This document shows, one piece after another, positions 26,709 to 46,995 of a stretch of 49,355 nucleotides of DNA (position 1 is the first letter of the stretch; each line of letters starts with the position of its first letter). Source of the stretch: Dactylosporangium sp. AC04546 (GTDB lineage: Bacteria; Actinomycetota; Actinomycetes; Mycobacteriales; Micromonosporaceae); the NCBI RefSeq assembly GCF_022095675.1, contig NZ_JAHYSG010000089.1, positions 1 through 49,355 on the forward strand, read 5' to 3'. Below the pieces are notes generated by a model that was not told the origin of the DNA, did not search any database, and saw nothing but the letters and a program-made list of their open reading frames with translations. The position numbers and the translations under genes are program-made.

Positions 26709-27707
26709 ATGGGCAAGAGCGGACGCGTCTTCGTACGTGGACTGACGTCGCAGTCGTACGGGCTGGGCGAGTTCCGGCGCCAGCAACTGGCGGTCGATCG
26801 CGTGCGCGACGACAGCGTCGTGGTCGACGACGCCAAGGTCGCACACTCGGGCGACAGCGAGAAGAGCCGCACCTGGTGGCGGATCGGGCCCGGCGACGAG
26901 GACTTCCTCACCCAGACGATCCAGGTGCACTTCGTCGAACTGCCCCCGGAGTCGTCCAACCACGGCCACGGCCACCAGAACGAGGCCGCCTTCTACATCC
27001 TCGAGGGCCGGGGCTACGAGATCCACGACGACCAGCGGTACGACTGGAGCGCCGACGACCTCGTCTTCGTGCACACCGACTCCGTGCACCGGCATTTCAA
27101 CCCGTACCAGGAACGCGCGGTCGCCCTGGTGGTGAAGGCGAAGTGCACCTGGATGTTCATGGGCCTGATCCAGCAGGGCCGCTCCGGACCGGTCGAGAAC
27201 GAGGAGCGGTTCGGCCCGCGGGAGGACTGGTCGCGCATCTGGACGCCGGGCGTCCTGGACCGCAAGAAGGTGATCTCGCCGGCGGACACCGTCTGGCAGG
27301 ACACTCCCCTGGGCCGGGTCCGGGTCATGTCGGCGGCGGACCGCGTCGACGCGCGCATCTTCAGCGTCGACGCCTTCGAGCTCGACATTCCGGCCGGCGG
27401 GCAGAGCGGCAAGTACTGGAAGATGGCCGACGAGGTCTACTACGTCCTCGACGGCGAGGGTTACGCGTTGCAGTGGGAGGTCGAGGCGGAGATCGCCGAG
27501 AAGTACTACGCGCGTATCGCCCTGGATCCCAAGCGGTACGAGGTGCGCCGCGGCGACACCCTCTACGTGCCGCAGAACCACGTCTGCCAGCTCTTCGCCG
27601 CCGACGGCACTCCGCTTCGTCTGTTCAACGCGCAGAACCGGGTCTTCAAGCACCTCGGCTACGACACGGTCCACTACTTCGAACCGGCCTCGGCGCCGAC
27701 CGCCTGA
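26709..27707 (+). CDS. Bicupin protein, candidate ring-cleavage dioxygenase
   Basis: This is a 332-aa protein with two cupin barrels. The first has a full metal site: HGHGHQNEAAFYILEGRGYE (two His and Glu) and HTDSVHRHFN. The second (YWKMADEVYYVLDGEGYAL, RRGDTLYVPQNHVCQLF) lacks the His-x-His pair, so probably only the first barrel binds a metal. The two-barrel plan resembles gentisate/1-hydroxy-2-naphthoate dioxygenases, which open aromatic rings, though the family also includes isomerases and binding proteins. The start ATG at 26709 follows GGAGGA. A putative operator precedes it. No LigAB-type ring-cleavage gene exists nearby, so this is one of two cupin candidates for that step. Confidence 0.75.
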   Translation: MGKSGRVFVRGLTSQSYGLGEFRRQQLAVDRVRDDSVVVDDAKVAHSGDSEKSRTWWRIGPGDEDFLTQTIQVHFVELPPESSNHGHGHQNEAAFYILEGRGYEIHDDQRYDWSADDLVFVHTDSVHRHFNPYQERAVALVVKAKCTWMFMGLIQQGRSGPVENEERFGPREDWSRIWTPGVLDRKKVISPADTVWQDTPLGRVRVMSAADRVDARIFSVDAFELDIPAGGQSGKYWKMADEVYYVLDGEGYALQWEVEAEIAEKYYARIALDPKRYEVRRGDTLYVPQNHVCQLFAADGTPLRLFNAQNRVFKHLGYDTVHYFEPASAPTA

Positions 27708-27806
27708 GCGGCCCGTGGCACAGGTGCCGTCCCGTGACACCCCGGCCGCAGTGCCGGGGATGGCGGCGGCGAGACGGCCCGATACCTGACCTGTCCCCGC
27801 CACCTT

Positions 27807-27847
27807 GGCGCCTGGGATCCTTGGCCTGGCCAGGGATCCCGGGCGCC
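27807..27847. terminator. Hairpin terminator between convergent genes
   Basis: The arms GGCGCCTGGGATCC and GGGATCCCGGGCGCC pair with one mismatch around a TGGCC-containing loop. It lies between the bicupin (plus) and MFS (minus) genes, so it can serve both directions. There is no U-tract, as is common in high-GC actinomycetes. Confidence 0.65.
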
Positions 27848-27897
27848 TCTCCGCGCAGGGCCTGATCGGCGTCGTCGAAGCGGCAACTGGGCCCTGG

Positions 27898-29124
27898 CTA
27901 GCGCGTGGCCTCCACCGTGCCGGTGTGCGACCGGACGACGTTCTGCCGGGCCAAGAACGAGGCAGCGACGATGATCGGCACGAACGCCCCGACGGTCAGC
28001 GCCGCCACCGGTCCGGCCACGCCGGCGAACGCGCCGACGAGCACGTCGCCGACTGCGGGCCCGCCTCGCGACGACATCTGGTAGAACGCGGTGACCCGGC
28101 CGCGCAGTTCGTCGGGGGTGTCGATCTGGACGGCGGCGTGGCGGATCGTGGTGGCCATCGCGTCGCATGCGCCAAGCAGGCCGGCGACGACGAGCGCGAC
28201 GGCGAAGACCGGCGCATGGGCCAGGGAGAGCGCCGCGCCGCCGTACAGCGCGGTGGCCAGCAGCAGGACCCGGCCCTGCCGCCGGCTGCGCTGGACGGTG
28301 CGGAAGACCAGGTAGGTGGCCAGCAGCGCACCGGCCGACGGTGCACTGGACAGCAGGCCGTATCCGACGGAGCCGGCGTGCAGGATGTCGACCGCGATCG
28401 CGGGCAGCAGGACGCGGTACGCGCTGAAGACCGTCGCCGACAGGTCCAGGGCCATGAGGCTGTAGATGAGCGGGCGGTGCGCCACGTAGCGTGCACCATC
28501 CACAATGGACCCCAGCAGAGAGCGCCGCTCCCCCGGCTGCTGCGACACCGGCACCCGCAAGACGGCCAGCACCGCGACGAGAAGGCCGTAGGTGGTGGCG
28601 TCGACCGCGTACACGAGACCCGGCCCGCTGGCGCTGATGAGCAGCCCGGCCATGAGGGGACCCACGAGGACGGCCAGTTCCCGCGACGGGTTGAGCAGTG
28701 CGACGGCCTGGCCGATCTCCGCCTTGGGCACCAGAGCCGGGACCAGGGCCTGCCGGGCCGGCTGGTCGAACGTCGCGGCGGCCGTGGTGAGCACGACCGA
28801 CAGCACCACGTGCCACGCCTGCGCGTGACCGGCAAGGGTGAGCCAGGCCAGCAGCGCGGCCACGAGCAGCGCGACGAACTGTGCCGCCTGCAGCAACCGC
28901 CGCCGGTCGAGCCGGTCGGCCAGTGCTCCGCCGAGTGGGCTGAGCACCAGCAGGGCCGCCGCCTGGGCGGCGCCGACCAGGCCGGTGTAGGCGATGGAGC
29001 CGGTGAGGTCGTAGACCTGATAGAAGTTCGCGGCCACCGTGCCACGGGTACCGATCTGAGACAGGATCACCGTGGCCCAGTACAGGCTGAAGTCGCGGTG
29101 TCGCAGGACCGGGGGCAGTCTCAA
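27898..29124 (-). CDS. MFS transporter (MFS_3/EntS-like), last gene of ABC operon
   Basis: This is a 408-aa, twelve-helix carrier. The start MRLPPVLRHRDFSLYWATVIL and the loop GALADRLDRRRLLQ between helices 2 and 3 fit the MFS_3 family; TPDELRGRVTAFYQMSSRGG is a second conserved loop. It lies 27 bases behind the ABC ATPase and is probably in the same operon. Such carriers often export small molecules, so it could move a pathway intermediate out or a substrate in; direction cannot be told. A related MFS gene at 35119 belongs to the same island. Confidence 0.88.
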   Translation of the reverse strand: MRLPPVLRHRDFSLYWATVILSQIGTRGTVAANFYQVYDLTGSIAYTGLVGAAQAAALLVLSPLGGALADRLDRRRLLQAAQFVALLVAALLAWLTLAGHAQAWHVVLSVVLTTAAATFDQPARQALVPALVPKAEIGQAVALLNPSRELAVLVGPLMAGLLISASGPGLVYAVDATTYGLLVAVLAVLRVPVSQQPGERRSLLGSIVDGARYVAHRPLIYSLMALDLSATVFSAYRVLLPAIAVDILHAGSVGYGLLSSAPSAGALLATYLVFRTVQRSRRQGRVLLLATALYGGAALSLAHAPVFAVALVVAGLLGACDAMATTIRHAAVQIDTPDELRGRVTAFYQMSSRGGPAVGDVLVGAFAGVAGPVAALTVGAFVPIIVAASFLARQNVVRSHTGTVEATR

Positions 29125-29151
29125 CGGACCGCCCCCGGTCCCGCGACCGGT

Positions 29152-30309
29152 TCAGGCAACGGGGACCAGGGCCAGCTTGTTGGGATCGAACCGGAGATAG
29201 ACCTCGGTGTCGGGGGCGATCGACACCGATGGGTTGCCCCGCGCCCGGATCTCGTGCTGGCCGACGGTGACCACGTGGTCGACGGCCTCGCCGAGGAAGG
29301 CGCGGGTCAGGACCTTGCCGGTCCACTCGTTGGGCACCTCTCCCGCGCGGGAGGAGAGGCTGACCTCGACCGCCTCCGGCCGGATGGACACCACCACCTG
29401 GCTACCAGTGGGGACGTCGGCAGCGGCGTCGAGGACCAGCGGTCCGTCGTCGGTGCGGATGGTGTACCGGCTACCGTCCTTCGCCTCGACCACCCCGGCG
29501 ATGAAGTTCGACGTGCCGATGAACTCGGCGACGAACCTCGAGTTGGGGTTCTCGTAGATCTCCCGCGGGCGGCCGAGCTGCACGACGTTGCCGCCGCGCA
29601 TCACCGCGATCGAGGAGCTCAGCACGAGCGCCTCGGTCTGGTCGTGGGTGACGTACACGGACGTGATGCCAAGCTCGCGCTGCAGACGCTTGAGCTCGTA
29701 CCGCAGGGATTCGCGCAGCTTGGCGTCGAGGTTGGACAGCGGTTCGTCGAGCAGCAGCAGCGGCGGCTCGATGACCAGCGCCCGGGCGAGCGCGAGCCGC
29801 TGCTGTTGGCCGCCGGAGAGCTTCGTCGCCTGGCGGCCGGCGAGGTCGGCCAGCTCCATCGTGGCGAGCACCCGCATGACCCGGTCGGTGAGCTCCTTCT
29901 TGCCGGGGCGGGTGCCCCGCTTGCGCACCTGCAGCGGAAACGCGACGTTGTCGAAGACGGTCATGTGCGGCCAGATCGCGTACGACTGGAACACCATGCC
30001 GAGGCCGCGCTCGTTCGCCGGCATGTTGACCAACTTCGCCGTGCCCTTGCCCGGCTCCCCGCCGGAGAAGAGCACCCGGCCGCCGACCTCGATGGTTCCG
30101 GCGTCCGGCCGCTCCAGCCCGGCGATCGAGCGCAGGGTGGTGGTCTTGCCGCAGCCGGACGGCCCCAGCAGGGTGAACAGCTCACCGTCGGCGACGTCGA
30201 AGCTGACGTCGTTGACGGCGTACACGCGATCCGGCTCGGCCCGCGCGGCCCGCGACCGCCGGCGCTGCTCGCCGTCGTAGCTCTTCACCAGGTTCTTGAT
30301 ACGCAACAT
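29152..30309 (-). CDS. ABC transporter ATP-binding protein (Fbp/Pot type)
   Basis: This is a 385-aa ATPase. Walker A GPSGCGKTTTLR (about 53), Q-loop in MVFQSYAIWPHMTVFDN, signature LSGGQQQRLALARAL, Walker B LLLLDEPLSN and the switch His in VTHDQTEAL are intact. The C-terminal third is a TOBE-type regulatory domain. It energises import through the adjacent two-domain permease with the lipoprotein at 32276. The family covers iron, spermidine, thiamine and small organic acids. Location within an aromatic-acid cluster favours an organic acid or a metal for the oxygenases. Confidence 0.93.
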   Translation of the reverse strand: MLRIKNLVKSYDGEQRRRSRAARAEPDRVYAVNDVSFDVADGELFTLLGPSGCGKTTTLRSIAGLERPDAGTIEVGGRVLFSGGEPGKGTAKLVNMPANERGLGMVFQSYAIWPHMTVFDNVAFPLQVRKRGTRPGKKELTDRVMRVLATMELADLAGRQATKLSGGQQQRLALARALVIEPPLLLLDEPLSNLDAKLRESLRYELKRLQRELGITSVYVTHDQTEALVLSSSIAVMRGGNVVQLGRPREIYENPNSRFVAEFIGTSNFIAGVVEAKDGSRYTIRTDDGPLVLDAAADVPTGSQVVVSIRPEAVEVSLSSRAGEVPNEWTGKVLTRAFLGEAVDHVVTVGQHEIRARGNPSVSIAPDTEVYLRFDPNKLALVPVA

Positions 30310-30325
30310 ATTGGCCTCCGTACGC

Positions 30326-32059
30326 TCAGTCCTGCTTGAGCCCGACCTTGGCGCCGAGCTTGTACGCGACGCTGACGAGGACGACGAGCGTGAGCACCAT
30401 GACGACGCCGAGCGCCGACAGGACGGTGAACTGACCGTTCTCGTACTGTTCGAAGATGAGGATGGACAGCACCTCGTTGCCGGGGCTGTAGAGCAGGATG
30501 GAGCTCGACAGCTCGCGGAACGAGACGACCAGGATGTAGATCCAGCCGGCGAGCAGGCCGGGTGACAGCAGCGGCAGCAGCACCCGCCGGAACGTCTGCC
30601 ACCAGCTGGCCCCGCTCACCTGTGCCGACTCCTCGAGCTCGGCGGAGATCTGGTGCATCGAGGTGACCGCGTAGCGCATGCCGTACGGCATGTACCGGGT
30701 GCAGTAGGCGATCAGGAGGATGAAGATCGTCCCGTAGATGGGGATCGGGCTGCGCAGGTACACGAACGACAGCGCGAGCCCGAGGACCAGGCCGGGGATG
30801 ACCAGGGGTACGAAGGCGAACTGGTCGACGAGCTGCCGGCCGGGAATGCGGGAACGCACGACGATCCAGGCCGCGACCGCCATGCCGGCCATGACGAGCG
30901 TGGCCGACGCGACGCCGAGGAAGAGCGAGTTCTTCAGCGCGGTCATCGCCTGCGAGAGGTGCAGCAACTCCCGGTAGTTGTCCAGCGACATCGACTTGAA
31001 CGCTGCCATCGACGGCGCCTGGTAGAACTTCAGCAGCGAGGTGTACAGCAGCACGAACAGCGGTGCGACGACAGTGAAGAAGAAGTACAGCAGGATCCCG
31101 GCGCCGACGACCGGGCGCCACTTGCCGAGCTCCATCGGCCGGGGCCGGAAGCCCTTGCCCGTCACGGTCTGGAACGACTTGCCGGACCGGCCGGCAAGGT
31201 TGGACACGGCCACGCCGATCATCGCAAGCACCAGCAGGCCCAGCGCGAGCGCGCCGGCAGCGGCGAGGTCCGGCGGGTAGCTGCGCAGCACGAAGTAGAT
31301 CCGGCTGGTGAACACGTATGTGCCGTCCTGCAGGCCGAGCAGCGCCGGGACCTCGAAGCTCTCCAGGCCGCGGACGGCCATGATCAGCACCGCGGCGACG
31401 ATCGCGGGGCGGACGAGCGGGATCGTGACCAGCCGGAACACCTGCAGGCGGGTCGCCCCGCACATGAACGCCGACTCCTCCAGCGACGGGTCCATCGAGC
31501 GGAACGCGGCGACCATGAGCAGGAAGACGATCGGCGACAGGTGCAGGCCCTCGACCCAGATCATGCCCCAGATCGAGAACACGTCGAAGAAGCCTTCGCC
31601 CACGATCGGTTCGATGGCCTTGTTGAGCAGCCCGATATCGGGGCTGGCCAGGAAGATCCAGGCGATCGTGTAGAGGATGCCGGGAATGACCAGCGGAATG
31701 ATCGACGCGGCGAAGAACAGCGCCTTGAACGGCACGTCGGTGCGTACGTTGAGATAGGCCAGGGTGGTGCCGACGACGAGGGACAGCAGGGCGGATCCGC
31801 CGGCGAACCACACCGAGTTGCCGATGAGGCTGCCGATCTGACTGTCGTTGTAGGCCCGGGCGAAGCCGCCGAGGGTGAACCCGCGGTCGTCGAAGAAGGT
31901 GCCCCAGATGAGGTAGTAGAGAGGAACCAGGGCGAGATAGCCGATGGTGCCCGCGACAGCCACGATGATGATGAGCTTCGGGGACGGCCGCCATCGGCGT
32001 CTCGGTCCGGCCGTGACCGGTTCTGTGACCGGTGCAGCGGGCGGCGCTACGGTGGTCAT
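30326..32059 (-). CDS. ABC transporter permease, two fused permease domains (FbpB/ThiP type)
   Basis: This is a 577-aa membrane protein with about twelve helices in two homologous halves. Each half has a binding-protein-dependent permease loop: EESAFMCGATRLQVFRLVTI in the first and EESAQVSGASWWQTFRRVLL in the second; both start EESA, the EAA-type contact for the ATPase. Fusion of two domains is normal for the iron/thiamine-type importers. The start ATG at 32059 lies 216 bases after the stop of the binding protein. That gap has a strong hairpin which may lower expression of permease relative to binding protein. Confidence 0.92.
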   Translation of the reverse strand: MTTVAPPAAPVTEPVTAGPRRRWRPSPKLIIIVAVAGTIGYLALVPLYYLIWGTFFDDRGFTLGGFARAYNDSQIGSLIGNSVWFAGGSALLSLVVGTTLAYLNVRTDVPFKALFFAASIIPLVIPGILYTIAWIFLASPDIGLLNKAIEPIVGEGFFDVFSIWGMIWVEGLHLSPIVFLLMVAAFRSMDPSLEESAFMCGATRLQVFRLVTIPLVRPAIVAAVLIMAVRGLESFEVPALLGLQDGTYVFTSRIYFVLRSYPPDLAAAGALALGLLVLAMIGVAVSNLAGRSGKSFQTVTGKGFRPRPMELGKWRPVVGAGILLYFFFTVVAPLFVLLYTSLLKFYQAPSMAAFKSMSLDNYRELLHLSQAMTALKNSLFLGVASATLVMAGMAVAAWIVVRSRIPGRQLVDQFAFVPLVIPGLVLGLALSFVYLRSPIPIYGTIFILLIAYCTRYMPYGMRYAVTSMHQISAELEESAQVSGASWWQTFRRVLLPLLSPGLLAGWIYILVVSFRELSSSILLYSPGNEVLSILIFEQYENGQFTVLSALGVVMVLTLVVLVSVAYKLGAKVGLKQD

Positions 32060-32275: not shown

Positions 32276-33406
32276 TCATTTGACCTCTTGTCCGGACCGG
32301 AGGATGTCGGCGTAGAGGTTGTCCCACTTCTTCGGATCGTTCAGCAGTTCCTGTTCGGGCACGGTGACCACCTTGAGCCCGGCGAGGGGGTCCTTCGCCT
32401 GCGGAATCGAGCCGATGCGGAACGACTCGCCGAGGATCGCCTGGCCCTCGGTGAGCTGGAAGTCGGCGAAGAGCATGGCCGCGGCGGGGTTCTTGGCCGT
32501 CTTCATGAGCGCCATCCCGTTGGGCCGCAGGACGATGGGCTGCAGGGGAACGCCCGACGCGGGGTGCCAGCTCACCGGGGCGCCCTTGTCCTGCGCCTTG
32601 TCGATGGTGTGGCTGTAGGAGGAGACGGTGATCGCGAACTGGCCCGCCGAGAGCAGCTCGCCCTGGGTGGTGTGTCCCTTGGCGACCTTGGAGTTGGCGG
32701 CGACGCGGGTGAAGAGGTCACGGACCTCGGCATCGGACTTGCCCTGATCGAGGTAGTACTTGTACAGGCCGGCGAACCAGTCGACGTCACCGACCTCCAT
32801 CGACACCCGGCCCTTCCACTTCGGGTCGGCCAGGTCCTCGAAGGACTTCGGCTCCTCGCCGGGTTTCACCTTCTCGGTGTTCCAGCCGATGACGAAGACG
32901 TTGAACCGGTGGGCGGTCCAGCCGTCCGCCTGGCCCTCCTTGCGGACCTTGTCGCGCAGTTCGCCCTTGTACGGGTAAACCACCTTCTCCGCGTTGAGGA
33001 CGTTGAGCTCGCCGGCGTTGGTGTCGACGAAGTCGACGCCGAGGTAGTTGGCCTTCTGCTCCTGCAGGATCCGCTGCAACACCGATTCGGAGTTGCCGCG
33101 GTACACGCTCACGTCAATCTTGTAGGCCTTCTCGAACTTCTCGATGACCTTGTCGATGTCCGTGTTCGAGGTGTAGACGGAGAGGTTTCCCTCTTTCTCG
33201 GCCAGCTCGACGAGCGTCTTCTTCCGCTCGTCGCTGGTGAGGCCGTTGATGCGGTCGTACACCTGCTGGGCCTTGGCGGTGGCGTCCGCCGCGGCGCCGC
33301 CGGCCTCGCCGGCGCCGCCGGGCGAGGTTGGCGACGATCCGCAGGCCGCGAGGATGAGGGCGGCAGCCGCGACTGCCGCCGATCGGACGATTCTTCTGTA
33401 TCGCAC
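32276..33406 (-). CDS. ABC transporter substrate-binding lipoprotein (Fbp type)
   Basis: This is a 376-aa exported lipoprotein. Signal peptide: MRYRRIVRSAAVAAAALILA followed by the lipobox Cys (LAAC). The mature part shows the extracellular solute-binding fold: GNLSVYTSNTDIDKVIEKFE, VDFVDTNAGELNVLN, PKSFEDLADPKWKGRVSME. This group includes iron and organic-acid binding proteins. The typical tyrosine pairs of iron binders are not obvious, which leaves an organic anion possible. The GTG at 33406 fits the signal peptide; the longer frame upstream is spurious. It is 83 bases behind the cupin gene and begins the transporter part of the operon. Confidence 0.9.
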   Translation of the reverse strand: MRYRRIVRSAAVAAAALILAACGSSPTSPGGAGEAGGAAADATAKAQQVYDRINGLTSDERKKTLVELAEKEGNLSVYTSNTDIDKVIEKFEKAYKIDVSVYRGNSESVLQRILQEQKANYLGVDFVDTNAGELNVLNAEKVVYPYKGELRDKVRKEGQADGWTAHRFNVFVIGWNTEKVKPGEEPKSFEDLADPKWKGRVSMEVGDVDWFAGLYKYYLDQGKSDAEVRDLFTRVAANSKVAKGHTTQGELLSAGQFAITVSSYSHTIDKAQDKGAPVSWHPASGVPLQPIVLRPNGMALMKTAKNPAAAMLFADFQLTEGQAILGESFRIGSIPQAKDPLAGLKVVTVPEQELLNDPKKWDNLYADILRSGQEVK

Positions 33407-34113: not shown

Positions 34114-34154
34114 AGTTCCTCCTGGTTTCACCGATGATCAGCGCGGTGGTCAAC

Positions 34155-36455: not shown

Positions 36456-36779
36456 ATGCCCAAGGTCACCTTCGTCACCCTGGACGGATCGCGGCGAACG
36501 ATCGACGCCACGGCCGGTGACTCCGTCATGGCGACGGCCGTGCGCAACGGCGTGCCCGGAATCATCGGCGAGTGCGGTGGCAACGTATCGTGCGCGACCT
36601 GCCACGTGTACGTCGACGAGGCGTTCGCCTCCCGCGTCGGCCCGCCCGGCGACATGGAGGACGACATGCTCGACCTCGCGGTGTCGGACCGGCGCGCCAC
36701 CAGCCGGCTCGCCTGCCAGATCAGGATGACCGACGCGCTCGACGGGCTCACGGTCGAGTGCCCCCAGGACCAGCCGTGA
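36456..36779 (+). CDS. [2Fe-2S] ferredoxin, adrenodoxin type
   Basis: This is a 107-aa ferredoxin. Cluster ligands are C40, C46, C49 (ECGGNVSCATCH) and C87 (RLACQI), the C-x5-C-x2-C pattern of the adrenodoxin/putidaredoxin class. It carries electrons from the reductase encoded next to the terminal oxygenase. The start ATG at 36456 follows GGAGGA. Its stop overlaps the reductase GTG by four bases. In the island the most likely acceptor is the Rieske oxygenase at 44689, as there is no cytochrome P450 gene in the window. Confidence 0.93.
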   Translation: MPKVTFVTLDGSRRTIDATAGDSVMATAVRNGVPGIIGECGGNVSCATCHVYVDEAFASRVGPPGDMEDDMLDLAVSDRRATSRLACQIRMTDALDGLTVECPQDQP

Positions 36780-38128: not shown

Positions 38129-38133
38129 CGGCG

Positions 38134-39845: not shown

Positions 39846-39856
39846 CACCGGCTCCC

Positions 39857-40969
39857 TCACGCCCACGGCAGCAGCGAGACGTGGACGACACCCTGCTCGT
39901 CACCCTGCCCGCCGACGGCCCGGATGGCGCGGTCGACCTCCTGCAGCCCGAACGTGTGGGTGGTCAACCGGTCCAGCGGGAACCGGCCGGAGGCCAGCTG
40001 CGCGAGTGCGAGCTCGCACGAGCGGTAGCTGTGGCCGCGGGCGCTCTTGATGGTGATCGCCTTCTCGGTCACCTTCTTCACCGGGAAGTCCGGGAACGCC
40101 GCCATCTCGCCCTGAATCAGCAGCGTGCCGGCGCGGCGCTTGAGCGCGTCGATGCCGAGCAGCACGGGGGCGACGCCGGCGCCGGCGGTGCAGTCGAGCA
40201 CGACGTCGACGCCCTTCCCGCCGGTGATCTCCATGACCCGCTGCAGGGCGTCCTCGCGCTGGACGTCGACGACGTGGTCGGCGCCCAGCTGCTGCGCCAG
40301 GTCCAGCCGGGCCGCGTCGCGCGTGGTGCCGGTGACGATGATCAGCGAGGCGCCGGCCTGCTTGCACGCGACCGTCTGGGCCAGCCCCTGCTGGCCGGGC
40401 CCCTGGATGAGGACCGTCGAGTCGTACCCGACGCCGGCGTCGAACAGCGCCCACTCGATGCCGTTGGACATCGGGGTGACGATGCCGGCGAGCTCCGCCG
40501 ACACCCCATCGGGCACCTTGTGCAGCACCGCGTTCCACGGCAGGTACATGTAGCCGGCGAATCCGCCCCAGAGGTGGAACGGGTTGTCGGCCGAGGTGTA
40601 GCCGTACCGCCGGGCGTCGGCGTTGGTGCGCCAGTCGGTGGCCTCGCAGTGCCGGTACTCGCCGAGGTGGCACCACTCGCAGCGCCGGCACGGCACGTAG
40701 TGCTCGATGAAGACCCGGTCGCCCTCGGCCACGCCCTGCCGCTCGCGGAAGGTGCGGCCGGCCTTGACGATGATGCCGACATTCTCGTGGCCCATGATCA
40801 CCGGGCCCGCCACGACCGGCTTGTCGTACATCTTGACGTCGGTACCGCAGATGCCGGCGACCTCGACCTTGAGCAGCGCGCCATCGTGCGGGACGTCGGG
40901 CATCGGGAACTCGCGGAGCTCCGTGATGCCCGGGCCGGTTCGCACGGCCGCCAGGACCTGTTCCGTCAT
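39857..40969 (-). CDS. Zinc-dependent alcohol dehydrogenase (MDR family)
   Basis: This is a 370-aa medium-chain dehydrogenase. Catalytic zinc ligands C41 and H61-E62 (GICGTD, GHENVG) and the structural four-Cys zinc site (C94, C97, C100, C108) are complete; the cofactor loop GPGQQGLAQTVACKQAG follows. It resembles threonine/sorbitol-type members. In this context it may oxidise the cis-dihydrodiol made by the Rieske oxygenase or an alcohol substrate. It is the first gene of the ligK-ligJ operon. The start ATG at 40969 has GGAGGG upstream, and a putative operator lies in the divergent gap with the decarboxylase gene. Confidence 0.9.
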   Translation of the reverse strand: MTEQVLAAVRTGPGITELREFPMPDVPHDGALLKVEVAGICGTDVKMYDKPVVAGPVIMGHENVGIIVKAGRTFRERQGVAEGDRVFIEHYVPCRRCEWCHLGEYRHCEATDWRTNADARRYGYTSADNPFHLWGGFAGYMYLPWNAVLHKVPDGVSAELAGIVTPMSNGIEWALFDAGVGYDSTVLIQGPGQQGLAQTVACKQAGASLIIVTGTTRDAARLDLAQQLGADHVVDVQREDALQRVMEITGGKGVDVVLDCTAGAGVAPVLLGIDALKRRAGTLLIQGEMAAFPDFPVKKVTEKAITIKSARGHSYRSCELALAQLASGRFPLDRLTTHTFGLQEVDRAIRAVGGQGDEQGVVHVSLLPWA

Positions 40970-41062: not shown

Positions 41063-41992
41063 ATGCAGCTCAGGACCGTGACCCGAACCCAGGGCAACAA
41101 CGAGGCACTCAAGGACGGCAGCGTGCGCCCTCGCGGCCACGAGTTCGCCTTCACCGAGGTCCCCGTGCTCGTCCAGGCGTTCCGCAGGATGGTGCGCGAC
41201 CTGGAGTTCGACGTGTGCGAGATGGCGATCACGACGTACCTGTGCGCCAAGGCCCACGGCAAGCCCTTCACCGCCCTGCCGGTCTTCCTCGTGCGCGGCT
41301 TCCACCACAGCGCCATGGTCCGCGGCGCCGACTCCGACGTGACACCGCACAGGCTCGAAGGCCGCCGGGTCGGGGTCAACCGCGGCTACACGGTCACGAC
41401 CGGCGTGTGGGCGCGCGGCATCCTGCAGGACGAGTACGGCGTCGACCTGGACCGAGTGACCTGGCTGCCGACCGGCGACGAGCACGTGGCGGAGTACCGC
41501 CCGCCCGCGAACGTGGCGCCCCTGGACGCCGGCCTCGACACCGCGCTGGCCGACGGCCGGGTCGCGGCGGCGGTCGGGATCGAAGCGACCCACGCCGGGC
41601 TGGAGCCGCTGATCCCGGACCCCGCGGAGGCGGGCTTCGCGGCCCTGCGCGACCGCGGCCTGTACCCGATCAACCACCTCGTGGTCGTCAAGGACGAGCT
41701 GCTGCGGACCGATCCGGGCCTGGCGGTCGCGGTCTTCGACGCGTTCGCCACCGCCAAGCAGCGCTACGTCGACCGGCTCACGGCCGACGCGATCGCGGCA
41801 CCGACCGCGACCGACCGGATGTACCGGCGGGTCATGCAGATCACCGGCGCCGATCCGCTGCCGTACGGCATCGCCCCGAACCGCGCGATGCTCGAGCAGC
41901 TCATCGGCCACGCGGTGCGTCAGCGGATCGTCGGCGCAGCGCCCGCCGTGGAAGCGCTGTTCCACCCCGCCACCCACGATCTCCTCGGCTGA
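41063..41992 (+). CDS. 4,5-dihydroxyphthalate decarboxylase-like protein
   Basis: This is a 309-aa protein of the Pht5/4,5-dihydroxyphthalate decarboxylase family, which adopts a periplasmic-binding-protein fold but is cytoplasmic. Family marks: LEFDVCEMAITTYLCAKAHG, ALPVFLVRGFHHSAM, LEGRRVGVNRGYTVTTGVWARGIL, and INHLVVVKDELL. No signal peptide is present. The typical reaction turns 4,5-dihydroxyphthalate into protocatechuate. The start ATG at 41063 is divergent from the dehydrogenase operon. This protein is the main hint that the substrate is phthalate-like, but the family may act on other ortho-dicarboxylates. Confidence 0.82.
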   Translation: MQLRTVTRTQGNNEALKDGSVRPRGHEFAFTEVPVLVQAFRRMVRDLEFDVCEMAITTYLCAKAHGKPFTALPVFLVRGFHHSAMVRGADSDVTPHRLEGRRVGVNRGYTVTTGVWARGILQDEYGVDLDRVTWLPTGDEHVAEYRPPANVAPLDAGLDTALADGRVAAAVGIEATHAGLEPLIPDPAEAGFAALRDRGLYPINHLVVVKDELLRTDPGLAVAVFDAFATAKQRYVDRLTADAIAAPTATDRMYRRVMQITGADPLPYGIAPNRAMLEQLIGHAVRQRIVGAAPAVEALFHPATHDLLG

Positions 41993-42002
41993 GGACGCCG
42001 CG

Positions 42003-42458
42003 ATGCGGATCGCGATCGCAGCCGACCACAACGGCATCTCGATGAAGGCCCGCCTCGCCGCGTGGCTGACCGGCCAGGGTCACCAGGTCGACGACCGCGG
42101 GGCGCACGACCCCGACGCGATCGTCGACTACCCACCGCTCTGTGCCGACCTGGCGCGGGAGATCCTCGCGGGGCGGGCCGACCGCGGCATCGTGATCGGC
42201 GGCACCGGCGGGGGCGAGGCGATCGCCAGCAACAAGATCCGCGGCATCCGCGCCGGCCTGTGCCACACGCCGTTCCTCGCCGAGATCTCCAGCGCCCACA
42301 ACATGACCAACGTCCTGGTGCTCGGTGCGAAGGTGATCACTCCGGACGACGCCGTGGAGATCACCTCGATCTGGCTCACCACGCCGTTCAAGGGCGAACG
42401 CCATCAGCACCGCCTGGACCAGATCGCCGCGCTCGAACGCGGCGAGCCGCTGTCCTGA
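42003..42458 (+). CDS. RpiB/LacA/LacB-family isomerase
   Basis: This 151-aa protein has the sugar-phosphate isomerase B fold: MRIAIAADHNGISMK, GIVIGGTGGGEAIASNKIRGIRAGL and HNMTNVLVLGAKV. The catalytic Cys of the E. coli-type enzyme is replaced by Gly, and Glu occupies the following site (GGEAIASNK), as in actinobacterial RpiB. The gene starts ten bases after the decarboxylase and has no link to sugar genes here, so a role on a ring-cleavage intermediate (keto-enol or double-bond shift, as done by LigU/GalD) is an attractive inference. Confidence 0.85.
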   Translation: MRIAIAADHNGISMKARLAAWLTGQGHQVDDRGAHDPDAIVDYPPLCADLAREILAGRADRGIVIGGTGGGEAIASNKIRGIRAGLCHTPFLAEISSAHNMTNVLVLGAKVITPDDAVEITSIWLTTPFKGERHQHRLDQIAALERGEPLS

Positions 42459-42471
42459 CCGCGTGACCGCC

Positions 42472-43332
42472 TCACGCCGCGCTGTCGACGGCGTCGAGGA
42501 ACTGCAGCACCCGGGTGGCCGCGGTGTCCTCGGTCTGCCCACTCACCGGGACGTCCCAGTACTCGTTGTTGGGCAGGCACTCCTGCAGGTACCGCGCCGC
42601 CGACGTCGCGTGGGAGGCGTCCTCCCCGGGCACGATGAGCGCCGGGATGTCCAGCAGCATCAGGTCCTCCGGCTCCGGGCCCGGCACCGTGTCCCGGTCG
42701 AACAGCACGCGCGACATGCCGGCCACAACGGCGGCGTAGCGGCGCGGTTCGTATTGCGCGTACCGCTGCGCGAACTCCGGGTCGCGGCGGATGACCGTGC
42801 TCCACGGGCCGACCCGCGAGTCCTGGCTGAAGCCCTTGTCCACCTCGCGGGCCAGGGCTACCACCTGCGCCAGGCCACACTCGGCGACGTAGGCCAGGTG
42901 CCGGACGAACCGGTCCTGCTGCAGCATGCGGTACCGTGGCCCGCCCGCCGGCGAGTACAGCACCATGCCGGCCACCGCGTCCGGGTATGCGACGGCGAAC
43001 GTCGTCGCGATCGAGCAGCCCACGCAGCCGCCCATGAGGTATGCGCGCTCGACGCCGAGGTGCTCGAGCAGCCCGCGGCCCTGCGCGGCGTAGGCACTCC
43101 AGCTGAGCCGTTCGACCCGGCCGCCGGAGCGCCCTGCCTCCCGCTTGTCGAACGTGATGCACATATAACGGTCGGCGAGCTGGCCCATCAGGTTGAGCCG
43201 GCGGTACAGCCCCTGCGCCCGCCAGTTGTCCAGCGTCGCGTTGAACCCGCCGGGCGAGAACATCAGCAACGGCGGCCCCGAGCCGGCCGTCTCGTAGTAC
43301 GTGGCGATGCCGTCGATGATGGCGGTGGGCAC
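42472..43332 (-). CDS. Alpha/beta-hydrolase-fold protein with Cys at nucleophile position
   Basis: This is a 286-aa alpha/beta-fold protein. The nucleophile elbow reads MGGCVGC: Cys 103 replaces the usual Ser (G-x-C-x-G). The oxyanion region FSPGGFNATLDNW and FDKREAGRSGG are present. The acidic residue (PGEDASH) can be found, but no His occurs in the usual C-terminal position (VPVSGQTEDTAATR), so the triad is unusual. Cys is known in dienelactone hydrolase. It could hydrolyse a lactone such as 2-pyrone-4,6-dicarboxylate, for which LigI is missing, or act without hydrolysis. The start is a GTG at 43332, preceded by GGAGGGG. It is the last gene of the Rieske operon. Confidence 0.8.
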   Translation of the reverse strand: MPTAIIDGIATYYETAGSGPPLLMFSPGGFNATLDNWRAQGLYRRLNLMGQLADRYMCITFDKREAGRSGGRVERLSWSAYAAQGRGLLEHLGVERAYLMGGCVGCSIATTFAVAYPDAVAGMVLYSPAGGPRYRMLQQDRFVRHLAYVAECGLAQVVALAREVDKGFSQDSRVGPWSTVIRRDPEFAQRYAQYEPRRYAAVVAGMSRVLFDRDTVPGPEPEDLMLLDIPALIVPGEDASHATSAARYLQECLPNNEYWDVPVSGQTEDTAATRVLQFLDAVDSAA

Positions 43333-43354
43333 GACGCCCCTCCGTTCCTTGTCG

Positions 43355-44173
43355 TTACCGCGCGGAGCCGCCCTTGATCTGCCGTCCGGCGCGCACGTCC
43401 CCGGCGTAGGCGGTGATCGCGTCGAAGCTGATCCGCGCCACGTTGGCGTAGGTGTCCGGCGGGTCGTCGAGCGCCGAGGCGGCGTAGCCGATCGCGGCGG
43501 TCGCCATCCGCATCCGCCCGTCGAGCCACGGCCCGCCGCCGTGCCCGCCGATGACCGGGATCGACACGGCGTTGGCCACGGCGGCGCCGACGACCGGCCC
43601 GGAGTTGGTGAAGTTCAGCAGCGACGCGCCGGCGGCCTCCAGCCGCTCGGCCTCAGCGACCAGTTCGTCGCGCATCTCCGGCGGTACGGTCGACCCGGCG
43701 CCGGGGTCGGGCCGGTACTCGACGCCGTAGCGCAGCGCGGTCTGCGGCGTGATGCCGAACTGCGCGAACACCGGGATACCCGCCCGGTGGACCGCGGTGA
43801 CGGCCGGTAGGTGGTCGGCCGCGCCGTCGAGCTTCACCAGGTCGACGCCGGCCTCCTTGACCAGCCGGATCGCGGCGCGGACCGCGCTGTCCGGGCCTTC
43901 CTGGAGCGGTCCGTACGGAAAGTCGCAGCTGAGCAGCGCGTGTTGCACCCCGCGGCGGACCGCCCTGGCGACGACGATCATCTCGTCCAGTTCGATCTCG
44001 AGCGGGTTCGCCCGGCCCCACAGGTTGACGCCGACAGTGTCGCCGACCGAGACGATGTCCACGCCGACCCGGTCGACGATCCGCGCCATCTGGTAGTCCC
44101 AGACGACCACACCGACGATCTTGCGCTGCTCGCGCTTCATCGCCTGCAGCCCGGCAAGGGTGACCTTCGCCAT
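43355..44173 (-). CDS. PanB-like (ketopantoate hydroxymethyltransferase family) enzyme
   Basis: This is a 272-aa TIM-barrel protein of the PanB family: KVTLAGLQAMKREQRKIVGV, VDIVSVGDTVGVNLWG (metal-binding Asp), AVRAAIRLVKEAGVDLVKLDG (catalytic region), and PVFAQFGITPQTA. It departs from true PanB in key loops, and the pantothenate gene panC is not present. PanB relatives with other substrates perform aldol or retro-aldol reactions. Within the Rieske operon, with four bases between it and the upstream ORF, it probably acts on a pathway keto acid. Confidence 0.8.
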   Translation of the reverse strand: MAKVTLAGLQAMKREQRKIVGVVVWDYQMARIVDRVGVDIVSVGDTVGVNLWGRANPLEIELDEMIVVARAVRRGVQHALLSCDFPYGPLQEGPDSAVRAAIRLVKEAGVDLVKLDGAADHLPAVTAVHRAGIPVFAQFGITPQTALRYGVEYRPDPGAGSTVPPEMRDELVAEAERLEAAGASLLNFTNSGPVVGAAVANAVSIPVIGGHGGGPWLDGRMRMATAAIGYAASALDDPPDTYANVARISFDAITAYAGDVRAGRQIKGGSAR

Positions 44174-44176
44174 GCT

Positions 44177-44692
44177 CTAGGCCCGCAGCGCCGTGAGCAG
44201 TTCGGTCAGGTCCTGTTCGTCGTGCGTCACCATCAGCACGCGCGCGTGGGGCCGCAGCGCCGACACGGTGACCCGGGTGTCCTGCCCGGCGAGCACCAGC
44301 CCGGCGGTCATGATGCCGTACAGGGTGCAGGCGTCGCCGATCGCGCGCGCCGCCGCGGCCGCCTCGTCCGTCGTGGCCACCATGACGGCCGCGTCGGCGC
44401 CGGCCAACTCCGCGCTCAGGCGCGCCTCCGACCCGTCGTCGCGCACCAGCACGACGTCGGCGATGCCGGTGAGGTCGCCGTCGGCCGGCATCGCCGGCGA
44501 CTGGCACGACAGGAAGTGGGCGCCGCCACGGTGTTGCTCGGCGGCACGGCGCACGACCGCCTCGGCGCCCTCGTCGAGTGCCACGACCCGGGTGCCGCGC
44601 GACGGCGCGATCGGTGCGTCGAGGCGGAACCTCGCCTCGGCCGCGGTCGCGGCCCGGGCGCAGCTGTTGAGCAGGATCGGCCGCATCGTCAC
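44177..44692 (-). CDS. Hypothetical protein of Rieske operon
   Basis: This is a 171-aa protein, start at GTG 44692 overlapping the Rieske stop by four bases (GTGA); an ATG at 44686 (MRPILLNSC) is possible. I do not recognise the family. It shows two alpha/beta modules: RGTRVVALDEGAEAVVRRAA and ADVVLVRDDGSEARLSAELA, then AAVMVATTDEAAAAARAIGD and HARVLMVTHDEQDLTELLTAL, suggesting a Rossmann-like or small nucleotide-binding fold. There is no signal or membrane segment. Tight coupling to oxygenase and PanB-like genes argues for a functional link. Confidence 0.6.
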   Translation of the reverse strand: MTMRPILLNSCARAATAAEARFRLDAPIAPSRGTRVVALDEGAEAVVRRAAEQHRGGAHFLSCQSPAMPADGDLTGIADVVLVRDDGSEARLSAELAGADAAVMVATTDEAAAAARAIGDACTLYGIMTAGLVLAGQDTRVTVSALRPHARVLMVTHDEQDLTELLTALRA

Positions 44693-45975
44693 ACCGTCGT
44701 CTGCGGTACGCCGGGGGTCGCCGTCACCGCGTCGCGGCACGCATCGAGGAACGACTCCTCGCGGGGGAGCACGATCGCGGCGGACCGGACCCGGTGGTGC
44801 GCGGGATCCGTGCCGGGCGGGGTCACACCCTCGTCACGCAACGCCAGGGCGGCCTTGCGCAGCTTCTGCCGAGCCTTGATGATGCCGCTGTCGGCCGGGA
44901 CCAGCCGCTCCTTGGTGCGGTCGACGATCGGCCCCATGCTCTCCTGCAGCGAGGCGTCCTGGATGGCGATGCCGGCCACACCGGAGTAGTGCTCGCCACG
45001 CTGCTGCGCCTCGCGGTCCATCAGGTAGTCGTTGTCCTTGTTGCGTACCGGGCGATACGTGCCAGGGATGTTCTCGCTGTGCACGCCGAATCCGGCCTTC
45101 ATGTTCTGCAGTTCGGCGTCGCTCAGCGCGCGGACCGGGTGGTAGTCGAACGTGTACACCCAGCAGTTCTCGTCGTCGATCGGCACCCAGAAGTGCCCGT
45201 GGACCGGGTGGTCGCCGCGCGGAGGCACCATCGTGAAGCTCGGCATGATCCACGGCGTGATGCGCCAGTAGTACTGGCCCTCTTCGGCGTTGCGGCGGGC
45301 CCCGACGAACAGGCCGCCGTCGGCCTCCGCGACCTCGAAGAACGGCTTCAGGTCATTGACGTTGTACTGGTTGCCACGGGCGCCCTTGAACAGCGGGTCG
45401 CTCTTGAGCGCTCCGGAGTGCAGCCAGGTGACGTGGCTGGAGTCGATGCCGCCCTCCAGTGCCTGCAGCCAGTTGCATTCCTGCCAGCGCTTGGAGGTGT
45501 ACGTCTGGTCCGCCGGCACGTTGACGAACTCGAACTCCGGCAGTCCCGGACGCCGGGCGGGGTCGCCCATGTGCGTCCACAGGATGTCGCCGACCTTGAT
45601 CAGCGGGTAGGCGCGGAGCTTGACGTTGGTGCAGAAGTTGCTGTTGTCCGGCTCGGACGGAACCTCCACACACTGGCCGGTCACGTCGTACTTCCAGCCG
45701 TGGTACGAGCAGCGCAGCCCGCCCTCCTCGTTTCGGCCGAACCACAACGAGGCGCCGCGGTGAGCACAGAACTCGTCCATCAGGCCATACCGGCCGTCGC
45801 TGTCCCGGAACGCGATCAACCGTTCGGACAGCAGCTTCACCCGCACCGGCGGGCAGTCGTCCTCGGGAAGCTCCTCCGCCAGGAGGGCAGGAATCCAGTA
45901 CTGCCGGAACAGCTCACCCATGGCCGTTCCAGGACCGGTCTGCGTCAACAGCTCGTTGAGCTCTGGTCTGAGCAT
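44689..45975 (-). CDS. Rieske non-heme iron oxygenase, phthalate 4,5-dioxygenase-like
   Basis: This is a 428-aa terminal oxygenase alpha subunit. The Rieske site is C70-x-H72 and C89-x2-H92 (FCAHRGAS, RCSYHGWKYD). The catalytic iron site has N168, D178, H181 and H186 (IDSSHVTWLHSG). Overall it follows phthalate 4,5-dioxygenase and related one-subunit oxygenases, including the N-terminal MGELFRQYWIPALLAEEL. Electrons come from the ferredoxin/reductase at 36.5-38.0 kb. It is the first gene of a four-gene operon and divergent from the regulator. The ATG at 45975 is about 42 bases downstream of a putative operator. No beta subunit gene exists, as expected for this class. Confidence 0.92.
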   Translation of the reverse strand: MLRPELNELLTQTGPGTAMGELFRQYWIPALLAEELPEDDCPPVRVKLLSERLIAFRDSDGRYGLMDEFCAHRGASLWFGRNEEGGLRCSYHGWKYDVTGQCVEVPSEPDNSNFCTNVKLRAYPLIKVGDILWTHMGDPARRPGLPEFEFVNVPADQTYTSKRWQECNWLQALEGGIDSSHVTWLHSGALKSDPLFKGARGNQYNVNDLKPFFEVAEADGGLFVGARRNAEEGQYYWRITPWIMPSFTMVPPRGDHPVHGHFWVPIDDENCWVYTFDYHPVRALSDAELQNMKAGFGVHSENIPGTYRPVRNKDNDYLMDREAQQRGEHYSGVAGIAIQDASLQESMGPIVDRTKERLVPADSGIIKARQKLRKAALALRDEGVTPPGTDPAHHRVRSAAIVLPREESFLDACRDAVTATPGVPQTTV

Positions 45976-46016
45976 CGAGGCGTCCTCCCGGGCAACCGCT
46001 CACCTCTTAAGTGCAA

Positions 46017-46028
46017 ACCATCATACCA
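46017..46028 (-). promoter_or_regulatory. Putative GntR operator upstream of Rieske operon
   Basis: On the minus strand this reads TGGTATGATGGT (ATGGT-ATG-ATGGT direct repeat), 42 bases before the oxygenase start. It is one of the clearest copies of the island motif. Confidence 0.55.
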
Positions 46029-46160
46029 TTGCAAGGGTTAGCAGGCAACGCTCGCCTCGGCGGCCGCTTCCTCGCGGCATCGAGTCGGACAGCACGGTGA
46101 ATTCAGGACTTTCGGCCCGGGTGCCACGGGCGGCACGCGCCGACCATCTGACACAGGCCC

Positions 46161-46172
46161 TGGTATGACGTC
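46161..46172 (+). promoter_or_regulatory. Putative GntR operator upstream of regulator gene
   Basis: It reads TGGTATGACGTC, 80 bases before the regulator ATG. A second candidate, TGGT-TAGGCC-ACCA, is an inverted repeat at 46192-46205. Together they suggest autoregulation. Confidence 0.5.
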
Positions 46173-46251
46173 ATTCTTTTAGGCCGTATTCTGGTTAGGC
46201 CACCATCCGCTTGCTCGGCGAAAGCTGCGCAACGACGAAAGATGAGCGCCA

Positions 46252-46995
46252 ATGGCAGCCGCGAAGACCCAGCCCATCGGTACCGGCGACGACGCGGACA
46301 TGTTCAAGACGGTGTCGATCAACCGCGTCTCGCAGTCGATCATCGATCAGATCAAGCTGCTGTTGCGGGAGGGACGACTCAAACCCGGAGACCGCCTGCC
46401 CAGCGAGCGCGAGCTGTGCGAACGCTTCGGGGTCAGCCGCGTGACCGTCCGCGAGGCGCTGCGCGTCCTCGAGGCGAGCGGCCTCATCGACATCCGCGTC
46501 GGCGCGCGCGGCGGCGCGTTCGTCACGTCCCCCACGTCACAGCAGATCGGCGAGGGTCTCGCCGATCTGATGAACCTGTCGCCGATGTCCGCGCCGCAGG
46601 TCACCGAAGCCCGTCAGATCTTCGAACTGGGCATCGTGTCCCTCGTGGTCGAGCGGGCCACCGACGAGGACATCGCGGCACTGCGCGACATGCTCGAACT
46701 GCACCAGGAAGCCCTCGATCGCGGCGAGTACAGCATGGCGCTGTCCGCGGACTTCCACGTCCGAGTCGCCGCCTGCACGCACAACCCGACGATCGAGATG
46801 CTGGTCCAGTCCTTCCACGGCCCGCTGCTCATGTCCCTGATCGAGGCGCAGGCGGTGGCCCCGACGATGGGCCGGCGCGGCACGGCGGAGCATGTCGAGT
46901 TCGTCGACGCGATCGCGGCCCGCGACGCCGAGCGGGCCTTGTCGATCATGCGCGAGCACCTGCAGCGCACGGCCGACCGCGTGAGGGAGATGTAA
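46252..46995 (+). CDS. FadR-subfamily GntR transcriptional regulator
   Basis: This is a 247-aa regulator. The winged helix spans about residues 20-88 (LLREGRLKPGDRLPSERELC, RVTVREALRVLEASGL), and the C-terminal FCD domain binds the effector (ELGIVSLVVERATDEDI, LSADFHVRVAACTHNP, EHVEFVDAIAARDAERAL). His and Asp residues of the metal/effector site are kept. FCD regulators normally respond to carboxylic acids and repress catabolic operons until an inducer is bound. It is divergent from the Rieske operon, and the motif set in the island matches the box type of this subfamily, so it is the probable master regulator of the cluster. Confidence 0.92.
   Translation: MAAAKTQPIGTGDDADMFKTVSINRVSQSIIDQIKLLLREGRLKPGDRLPSERELCERFGVSRVTVREALRVLEASGLIDIRVGARGGAFVTSPTSQQIGEGLADLMNLSPMSAPQVTEARQIFELGIVSLVVERATDEDIAALRDMLELHQEALDRGEYSMALSADFHVRVAACTHNPTIEMLVQSFHGPLLMSLIEAQAVAPTMGRRGTAEHVEFVDAIAARDAERALSIMREHLQRTADRVREM

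Follow-up and report, generated by a model that had tools for sequence, protein, structure and literature searches.

The closest described systems to the locus studied here are the protocatechuate 4,5-cleavage (lig/pcm) pathway, which shares the orthologues LigJ and LigK at the end of the route, and isophthalate dioxygenase (IPDO). IPDO of Comamonas testosteroni KF1 (PDB 9INA) is a single-subunit Rieske oxygenase with R234 and H257 as carboxylate ligands (PMC12445078). Three further proteins of the locus resemble 4,5-dihydroxyphthalate decarboxylase (PDB 9JP7), ketopantoate hydroxymethyltransferase (PanB), and the GTPase domain of the FtsZ/tubulin superfamily. The locus occupies positions 26709-46995 of a 49,355-nucleotide stretch (the window) of Dactylosporangium sp. 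AC04546. The host assembly is rated at 99.75% completeness and 11.5% contamination.

Every gene named in the first-pass annotation was recovered, i.e., the Rieske oxygenase with its own ferredoxin and reductase, a dihydroxyphthalate-decarboxylase-like protein, LigJ and LigK, two cupins, and RpiB-like, PanB-like, Cys-type alpha/beta, and 171-aa proteins. The Zn-dependent alcohol dehydrogenase, the 3-hydroxyisobutyrate-dehydrogenase-like protein, an ABC importer, two MFS proteins, and a GntR regulator had not been mentioned there. Co-occurrence of these families had been suggested as a check. With the 171-aa protein as query, the grouping was found conserved in 39 distinct loci, and a block of approximately 13 genes is common to many soil actinobacteria. 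The Rieske oxygenase and the Cys-type alpha/beta protein accompany the 171-aa protein in 39/39 loci and the PanB-like protein in 38. By called genes, these four (the core) are contiguous in 37 of the 39. The grouping is not chance.

The locus and residue counts (39 loci, 40 sequences) omit L056, a 64-residue match without the cluster, as well as two duplicates, L058 (of L040) and L061 (of L035). Duplicates are retained in the bicupin and PanB-like conservation lists and in the GTP-motif count. Genes of the relatives were called by a simple caller trained on this window, which in L063 overlooked two core genes that tblastn detects, and presence counts read flanks of 10 kb or less. The plasmid collection searched gave no match, and among the open-licence papers listed by literature searches no title or abstract described this cluster. 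The features are as follows.

26709..27707, forward: bicupin of 332 aa, candidate ring-cleaving dioxygenase, near the core in 14/39 loci
27898..29124, reverse: MFS transporter (MFS_3), homologue near the core in 2/39 loci
29152..30309, reverse: ABC importer ATPase (PotA/PhnT-like), near the core in 5/39 loci
30326..32059, reverse: ABC importer permease with two BPD_transp_1 stretches, 4/39 loci
32276..33406, reverse: ABC importer solute-binding protein, 3/39 loci
33490..34131, reverse: single-domain cupin of 213 aa, HxH...E and H...N motifs recognized by eye
34199..35038, reverse: 3-hydroxyisobutyrate-dehydrogenase-like protein, 4/39 loci
35191..36372, forward: MFS transporter (MFS_3), 3/39 loci
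36456..36779, forward: [2Fe-2S] ferredoxin, presumed Rieske partner, 28/39 loci
36776..38038, forward: ferredoxin reductase (FAD, Reductase_C), 18/39 loci
38134..39156, reverse: LigJ, 4-oxalomesaconate hydratase, full-length match to PDB LigJ (E about 1e-152)
39156..39866, reverse: LigK, 4-carboxy-4-hydroxy-2-oxoadipate aldolase, above the NF006731 and TIGR02798 cut-offs
39857..40930, reverse: Zn-dependent alcohol dehydrogenase family protein, in 26/26 LigJ/LigK loci
41063..41992, forward: 4,5-dihydroxyphthalate-decarboxylase-like protein, diverged paralogue matching PDB 9JP7
42003..42458, forward: RpiB/LacAB-like isomerase, 21/39 loci
42472..43332, reverse: Cys-type alpha/beta-hydrolase-fold protein, invariant Cys103, Gln266 at the usual catalytic-His position
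43355..44173, reverse: PanB-like TIM-barrel protein, PF02548 above the gathering score
44177..44692, reverse: 171-aa protein with predicted FtsZ-like fold, GTP motif absent, 4-base overlap with the Rieske gene
44689..45975, reverse: Rieske oxygenase of isophthalate/phthalate-dioxygenase type, PF00355 and LigXa_C
46252..46995, forward: GntR/FCD transcription regulator, 25/39 loci

The 171-aa protein was given no family by Pfam and NCBIfam scans. Its predicted model (pLDDT 84) has an FtsZ-type Rossmann fold over residues ~27-171, Foldseek aligned it with the FtsZ-like fold at E 8e-4, and the best 50 matches listed in the VIA structure list were all FtsZ. On the sequence side, hhalign gave a colinear but weak profile match between the family and FtsZ (probability 38%), and this support, though weak, lay above that of 239 control families. 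The profile reached only E 0.16 at best against PDB sequences, and Pfam scans of 35 members brought up no tubulin/FtsZ model. In contrast to FtsZ, the protein is too short for the C-terminal domain and lies in catabolic operons, and the GGGTGTG-type GTP motif was found in 0/41 sequences (two duplicates included) versus 26/26 FtsZ. The protein thus looks like a shrunken FtsZ relative without the GTP motif, going by the predicted model. That the protein is instead a generic Rossmann-like one, without any particular link to FtsZ, we consider somewhat unlikely. No case of FtsZ-like proteins in catabolism was found among the open-licence papers listed.

The Rieske oxygenase has isophthalate dioxygenase 9INA as its nearest PDB relative. 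Three solved relatives stood far above the rest: this enzyme and two more entries of the phthalate-dioxygenase type. The IPDO ligands R234 and H257 are retained as R238 and H261 in 40/40 sequences. The Rieske domain, the LigXa_C-type domain, and both carboxylate ligands are features shared with the phthalate/isophthalate dioxygenases. Relative to IPDO, F249 is replaced by Arg, F333 by Ile, and L198 by Asn in all 40. The island also differs from IPDO in its separate ferredoxin gene and in the constant 171-aa, PanB-like, and alpha/beta neighbors. Because the closest relative is isophthalate dioxygenase, the carboxylate ligands are retained, and an invariant Arg is added, we take the probable substrate of the cluster to be a di- or tricarboxylate of the phthalate type. 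Among the open-licence papers listed for benzenetricarboxylate dioxygenases, none described this cluster in title or abstract.

LigJ and LigK were found within the stretch read in 26/39 loci. A further LigJ search covered 13 genomes, i.e., 12 of the 13 loci lacking the pair (L060 was left out) and one positive control. Eleven of the 12 gave a close LigJ of 66-81% identity, and it was not found in L054, a MAG carrying the core. Nine of these 11 lie 11-55 kb from the core, the contig being taken as the same because its length is equal; for Mycolicibacterium and Phytohabitans alone this was also verified from sequence in common. In Phytohabitans the match is split over two frames. The Zn-dependent dehydrogenase is a constant companion of LigJ/LigK and is a candidate dihydrodiol or semialdehyde-hemiacetal dehydrogenase. 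Unlike the lig/pcm pathway, the island combines LigJ and LigK with this dehydrogenase and with RpiB-like and Cys-type alpha/beta proteins, and neither LigC nor LigI was recognized among its scanned proteins.

For the decarboxylase-like protein, 9JP7 alone among PDB sequences matched with an E of 1 or less (1.5e-33), aligned over residues 15-306. The island copy is a diverged paralogue scoring 117-120 bits, whereas a closer relative of 9JP7 in 18/39 loci (c11) scores 309. A 55% relative of c11 is present in the host on a different contig from the island, and matches at the level of the window copy (94-124 bits) occurred in 15/15 genomes searched with c11, host included. The RpiB-like protein exceeds the subfamily models NF004051 and TIGR00689 and falls below the equivalog cut-offs of TIGR01120 (124.4 vs 138.65 bits) and TIGR02133 (135.5 vs 168.2 bits); it is a candidate tautomerase. 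Treating the PanB-like and RpiB-like genes as housekeeping copies was dropped, since separate proteins over the family cut-offs exist elsewhere in the host, i.e., a PanB on contig C4 and two proteins over the TIGR02133 cut-off.

The first-pass annotation had noted that standard LigAB and LigI are missing, and no LigA/LigB-type genes were recognized among the island's scanned proteins. The profile search with LigA (PF07746) gave 0 matches in the host genome, and all 14 control genomes were also silent; the model does respond in cluster relatives, with E 1e-33 or better in 4 genomes. LigA was present in 5/25 cluster genomes and, at variance with the lig/pcm pathway, not found in the other 20 (the search covered the genomes of 25 of 35 loci, the remaining ten being MAG records). 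Three LigB-family (PF02900) proteins lie on other contigs of the host; one passes an MhpB cut-off, one is DOPA-dioxygenase-like below the cut-off, and the third, an unassigned class III enzyme, is encoded on contig C21 next to a citryl-CoA-lyase-like gene. LigB-family proteins, at least one per genome, were found in 17 of 18 cluster genomes searched, two LigA-bearing Blastococcus genomes being excluded. The exception is Sphaerisporangium album (L029), for which the LigA search was likewise negative; one stretch of its DNA carries the core, LigJ, LigK, the dehydrogenase, the decarboxylase, the RpiB-like protein, the bicupin, and the ferredoxin with its reductase. Because LigA was found neither in the host nor in most relatives searched and one relative gave no LigB-family match, a LigAB-free feed into 4-oxalomesaconate is supported at the sequence level.

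The bicupin is the best candidate for the ring opener. Its His87, His89, Glu92, His122, His127, and His129 are invariant in 16/16 sequences (one a duplicate). However, it may not open the ring, because it is near the core in so few loci and none of four cupin types was found in 16/39 (flanks of 10 kb or less). The single-domain cupin has an 84% identical copy in Acrocarpospora catenulata. An EutA-like protein (c15) and its neighboring bicupin (c14), in 17/39 loci each, were considered as required members and dropped on host searches: c15 gave no match in a search run without a positive control, and c14 gave only 35-42% matches spanning one cupin domain. The idea that LigAB, LigJ, and LigK are merely scattered over the genome was likewise dropped on the LigA result (no match in the host and in 20 of 25 cluster genomes).

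An ordinary phthalate or isophthalate route would have the cluster produce protocatechuate, which a LigB-family enzyme from another part of each genome would then open, with the odd proteins accessory. The relatives of the Rieske oxygenase agree with this, the 4,5-dihydroxyphthalate type of decarboxylase yields protocatechuate, and any LigB-family protein of the host or cluster genomes, the class III enzyme on C21 among them, could act on the cluster's substrate. The failure to find LigA in 20 of 25 genomes, the full set without a LigB-family match in S. album, and the location of the host LigB-family proteins on other contigs, two of them reading as MhpB and DOPA-dioxygenase-like, count against it, and we regard this route as unlikely.

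The PanB-like protein belongs to PF02548 and retains Asp45 and Asp84. It differs from PanB in scoring 144.6 bits against a TIGR00222 cut-off of 207.6 and in having Thr189, invariant in 41 sequences (duplicates included), in place of the catalytic Glu. The alpha/beta-hydrolase fold of the Cys-type protein is clear, and Cys103, Asp238, and His241 are invariant in 31 sequences, Gln266 holding the canonical His position. It is improbable that the Rieske core is a LigXa-type O-demethylase or dealkylase, with the PanB-like and alpha/beta proteins processing the released one-carbon unit and LigJ/LigK taking a gallate-type cleavage product. In favor of this, the C-terminal domain is LigXa_C, named for a lignin O-demethylase, PanB proteins carry hydroxymethyl groups, and gallate cleavage leads straight to 4-oxalomesaconate. 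Against it, the top three solved relatives are isophthalate- and phthalate-type dioxygenases, the carboxylate ligands are retained, and the PanB-like protein has lost the Glu needed for PanB catalysis.

The first-pass annotation had proposed a new variant of the 4-oxalomesaconate route in which the odd proteins replace ring opening, semialdehyde dehydrogenase, and pyrone hydrolase. The variant itself gained from the conserved aromatic-acid set ending in LigJ/LigK and from the absence of LigA in most genomes tested. A one-for-one replacement of the ring-opening, dehydrogenase, and lactonase steps gained no such support. The 171-aa, PanB-like, and alpha/beta genes adjoin the Rieske gene. Because these genes stay contiguous with it even in the 13 loci without nearby LigJ/LigK, a role at or beside the oxygenase step is no less likely than a role at the pyrone step.

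Our proposal is an undescribed, mainly actinobacterial pathway for aromatic polycarboxylates with cupin ring opening and an FtsZ-fold accessory subunit; judged from sequence, belief and doubt are evenly balanced. The substrate would be a di- or tricarboxylate of the phthalate type. Going by family, the Rieske oxygenase, ferredoxin, and reductase would dihydroxylate the ring, the decarboxylase-like protein would take off a carboxyl, LigJ would hydrate 4-oxalomesaconate, and LigK would split the product into pyruvate and oxaloacetate. In between, a cupin dioxygenase, best the bicupin, would open the ring instead of LigAB, the Zn-dependent dehydrogenase would oxidize either the dihydrodiol or, after ring opening, the semialdehyde in its cyclic hemiacetal form, and the RpiB-like protein would make a keto/enol shift. 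The Cys-type alpha/beta and PanB-like proteins may act on an intermediate adjoining the oxygenase step. The 171-aa protein would be an accessory, non-GTP-binding subunit whose conserved N-terminal segment would bind the Rieske, PanB-like, and alpha/beta enzymes. It is a long shot that a tubulin/FtsZ domain without its GTP site is an obligate subunit of a Rieske/PanB-like/Cys-type alpha/beta assembly and, with cupin opening, provides a third entry into 4-oxalomesaconate, for benzene tricarboxylates from humic or charred matter.

The cluster is carried by named culture-collection strains, e.g., of Planotetraspora, Acrocarpospora, Sphaerisporangium, and Blastococcus, and therefore the pathway and FtsZ-fold claims are testable now. 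The 171-aa protein is a candidate for an FtsZ-fold protein working in catabolism, and not in cell shape, division, or DNA segregation. The cluster suggests that a soil pathway for aromatic acids, widely shared, has so far escaped description.

Genes of the window were taken from a gene call, and their proteins were scanned against Pfam, NCBIfam and PDB sequences. All genes named in the first-pass annotation were present at 26709-46995, in the following order:

First, + strand: bicupin
Second, - strand: MFS, three ABC-importer genes, single cupin, 3-hydroxyisobutyrate-dehydrogenase-like
Third, + strand: MFS, ferredoxin, ferredoxin reductase
Fourth, - strand: LigJ, LigK, Zn-dependent dehydrogenase
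Fifth, + strand: dihydroxyphthalate-decarboxylase-like, RpiB-like
Sixth, - strand: Cys-type alpha/beta protein, PanB-like, 171-aa protein, Rieske oxygenase
Last, + strand: GntR regulator

In the open frames used, the Rieske and 171-aa genes overlapped by 4 bases, LigK and the Zn-dependent dehydrogenase by 10 bases, and LigJ and LigK by 1 base. Elsewhere in the window, two KdpA genes lay on opposite strands, within 481-2121 and 4981-9720. The second was accompanied by an E1-E2 ATPase gene and KdpC, i.e., two potassium-ATPase loci adjoin. A PknG-type kinase (14403-16595), carrying both a rubredoxin and a TPR domain, and, nearby, a von Willebrand A protein (12158-13438) lay in the region 12158-17821.

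The 171-aa protein had 1937 homologues at E <= 1e-3, including a 93%-identical one filed under Dactylosporangium. By alignment of 24 of these homologues, 35 named loci were found, and seven further stretches were added; with one fragment and two duplicates removed, 39 loci were counted. The Rieske oxygenase, the 171-aa protein and the alpha/beta protein were found in 39/39 loci, and PanB-like in 38. These four core genes were contiguous in 37 loci by called genes. The Zn-dehydrogenase and ferredoxin were each found in 28 loci, LigJ and LigK each in 26, the GntR regulator in 25, decarboxylase-like in 23, RpiB-like in 21, ferredoxin reductase in 18 and the bicupin in 14. All 26 LigJ/LigK loci also held the Zn-dehydrogenase and a decarboxylase of either type. 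The relatives carrying the cluster included Micromonospora, Kibdelosporangium, Acrocarpospora, Phytohabitans, Sphaerisporangium, Blastococcus, Mycolicibacterium, Actinomadura, Planotetraspora, Pseudonocardia and Modestobacter. Fertoeibacter niger, an alphaproteobacterium, was also among them; no PanB-like gene was seen in the 20 kb read there. Co-occurrence of the gene families across distinct loci was thus confirmed, and the grouping is real and stronger than it first appeared.

Further genes were seen near the core in relatives. An EutA-like protein (approximately 520 aa; PF06277 in the L037 copy) was paired with a second bicupin type (approximately 372 aa), each in 17/39 loci; the pair was listed for loci L032, L033, L035-L038, L042, L043, L045, L046, L048, L049, L052, L053, L060 and L062. 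In the host, the EutA-like protein went unmatched, and nothing matched the second bicupin over its full length. A phosphoglycerate-mutase-type protein (approximately 247 aa; His_Phos_1 in the L049 copy), another sugar-phosphate-type enzyme here, was also in 17/39 loci, i.e., L049, L044, L043 and others.

LigJ and LigK were not seen in the stretch read at 13 of the 39 loci. LigJ was searched in 12 genomes of these loci, together with one positive control, and matches of 66-81% identity were found in 11. In nine of the 11, LigJ was 11-55 kb from the core, and the contigs recorded for the two were equal in length; in two, both MAGs, the contigs were different. From these matches beyond the stretch, the LigJ/LigK module belongs to one system with the Rieske core, including where some tens of kb separate them. 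At the distant sites of Phytohabitans suffuscus, Mycolicibacterium stellerae and Blastococcus sp. DSM 46786, LigJ was adjoined by LigK, the Zn-dehydrogenase, the decarboxylase and RpiB-like. The first two sites also held ferredoxin and reductase, and the Blastococcus site the reductase. A bicupin at 88% identity lay within the Mycolicibacterium site, and LigJ, LigK and the dehydrogenase were grouped at the distant site in Fertoeibacter. In P. suffuscus the dehydrogenase call was short and the LigJ match was split over two frames; because of this split, the LigJ copy may be broken, and with the short dehydrogenase call it suggests that the module may be degenerating. The one genome searched without a LigJ match was the MAG of locus L054. 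Genes past the core there resembled CoA-transferase, biotin-dependent carboxylase and hydantoinase types, as read by eye from the first letters. A second downstream route is possible in L054.

The best PDB match of the Rieske protein was isophthalate dioxygenase 9INA (447 bits), followed by a putative phthalate 4,5-dioxygenase (331 bits). In the isophthalate dioxygenase study, R234 and H257 hold the two carboxylates, F333 stacks on the ring, and F249 was changed to His, with V178A, for binding further carboxylate positions (PMC12445078). These residues were placed on the window Rieske protein by hand, via the PDB-match alignment. The carboxylate ligands are kept as R238 and H261; F249 is replaced by Arg253, F333 by Ile336 and L198 by Asn202. 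All five window residues were identical in 40/40 sequences. With its third cationic residue, the enzyme would fit a benzene tricarboxylate or an ortho-dicarboxylate, which we infer as the substrate.

A second decarboxylase type, c11, was found in 18/39 loci. Against the 4,5-dihydroxyphthalate decarboxylase of known structure it scored 309 bits, far above the window decarboxylase (117-120 bits). Full-length c11 was found in 9/15 genomes searched, including the host (55% identity, separate contig), and not in the other six, one of which had two short pieces. In Kibdelosporangium aridum, just two short c11 pieces adjoined the cluster (contig C13, 64829-65158), as if the gene were decaying. Matches of 94-124 bits, the level of the window decarboxylase, were present in all 15 genomes.

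The PanB-like protein scored 144.6 bits against a cut-off of 207.6. It keeps Asp45 and Asp84, and Thr189 stands at the site of Glu in the host's own PanB; this Glu is the base in PanB catalysis. Asp45, Asp84, Lys114, Asp116 and Thr189 were invariant in 41 sequences. The RpiB-like protein was over two subfamily models and under both RpiB equivalog cut-offs, and two other host proteins, encoded elsewhere, exceeded the TIGR02133 cut-off. The predicted model of the alpha/beta protein (pLDDT 88) showed an ordinary fold, with esterases and C-C hydrolases as its nearest neighbours. Its Cys103, Asp238 and His241 were invariant in 31 sequences, and so was Gln266 at the usual catalytic-His site. The roles of these three proteins and the Zn-dehydrogenase are putative, as is that of the 171-aa protein with its predicted FtsZ fold.

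LigA had no match in the host genome (13.0 Mb; rated at 99.75% completeness and 11.5% contamination). Among 25 cluster genomes, LigA was above the cut-off in five, four of these at E <= 1e-33, and had no match above it in 20; 14 control genomes were also silent. Despite the silent controls the search works, because four relatives matched that strongly. LigB-family proteins were found in 17/18 genomes searched. Matches of 220-240 bits adjoined LigA in Pseudonocardia parietis and Modestobacter lapidis, and scores in the other genomes were at most 156 bits. Three such proteins were in the host, i.e., one reading as MhpB (above a cut-off), one DOPA-dioxygenase-like protein below its cut-off, and an unassigned class III extradiol dioxygenase (locus L006, 8100-10123, host contig C21). 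The last adjoined a citryl-CoA-lyase-like gene and a 120-aa open frame. Sphaerisporangium album matched neither LigA nor the LigB family in genome searches; one stretch of it held the core, LigJ, LigK, dehydrogenase, decarboxylase, RpiB-like, ferredoxin, reductase and bicupin.

In the first domain of the bicupin, His87, His89, Glu92, His122, His127 and His129 were invariant (16 sequences, one a duplicate), so the His/Glu set of a cupin metal site is kept. The bicupin is the strongest candidate for the ring-opening enzyme, though it was in 14 of the 39 loci. The first-pass annotation had proposed a new variant of the 4-oxalomesaconate route in which island proteins replace the missing steps. 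The sequences support this route in part; one-for-one replacement of the absent steps would be conjecture. The LigJ/LigK genes, the conserved gene set and the missing LigA in the host and most relatives tested were all read directly from sequence. Because LigA is missing there and S. album lacks a LigA or LigB match, a feed into 4-oxalomesaconate without LigAB is supported at the sequence level.
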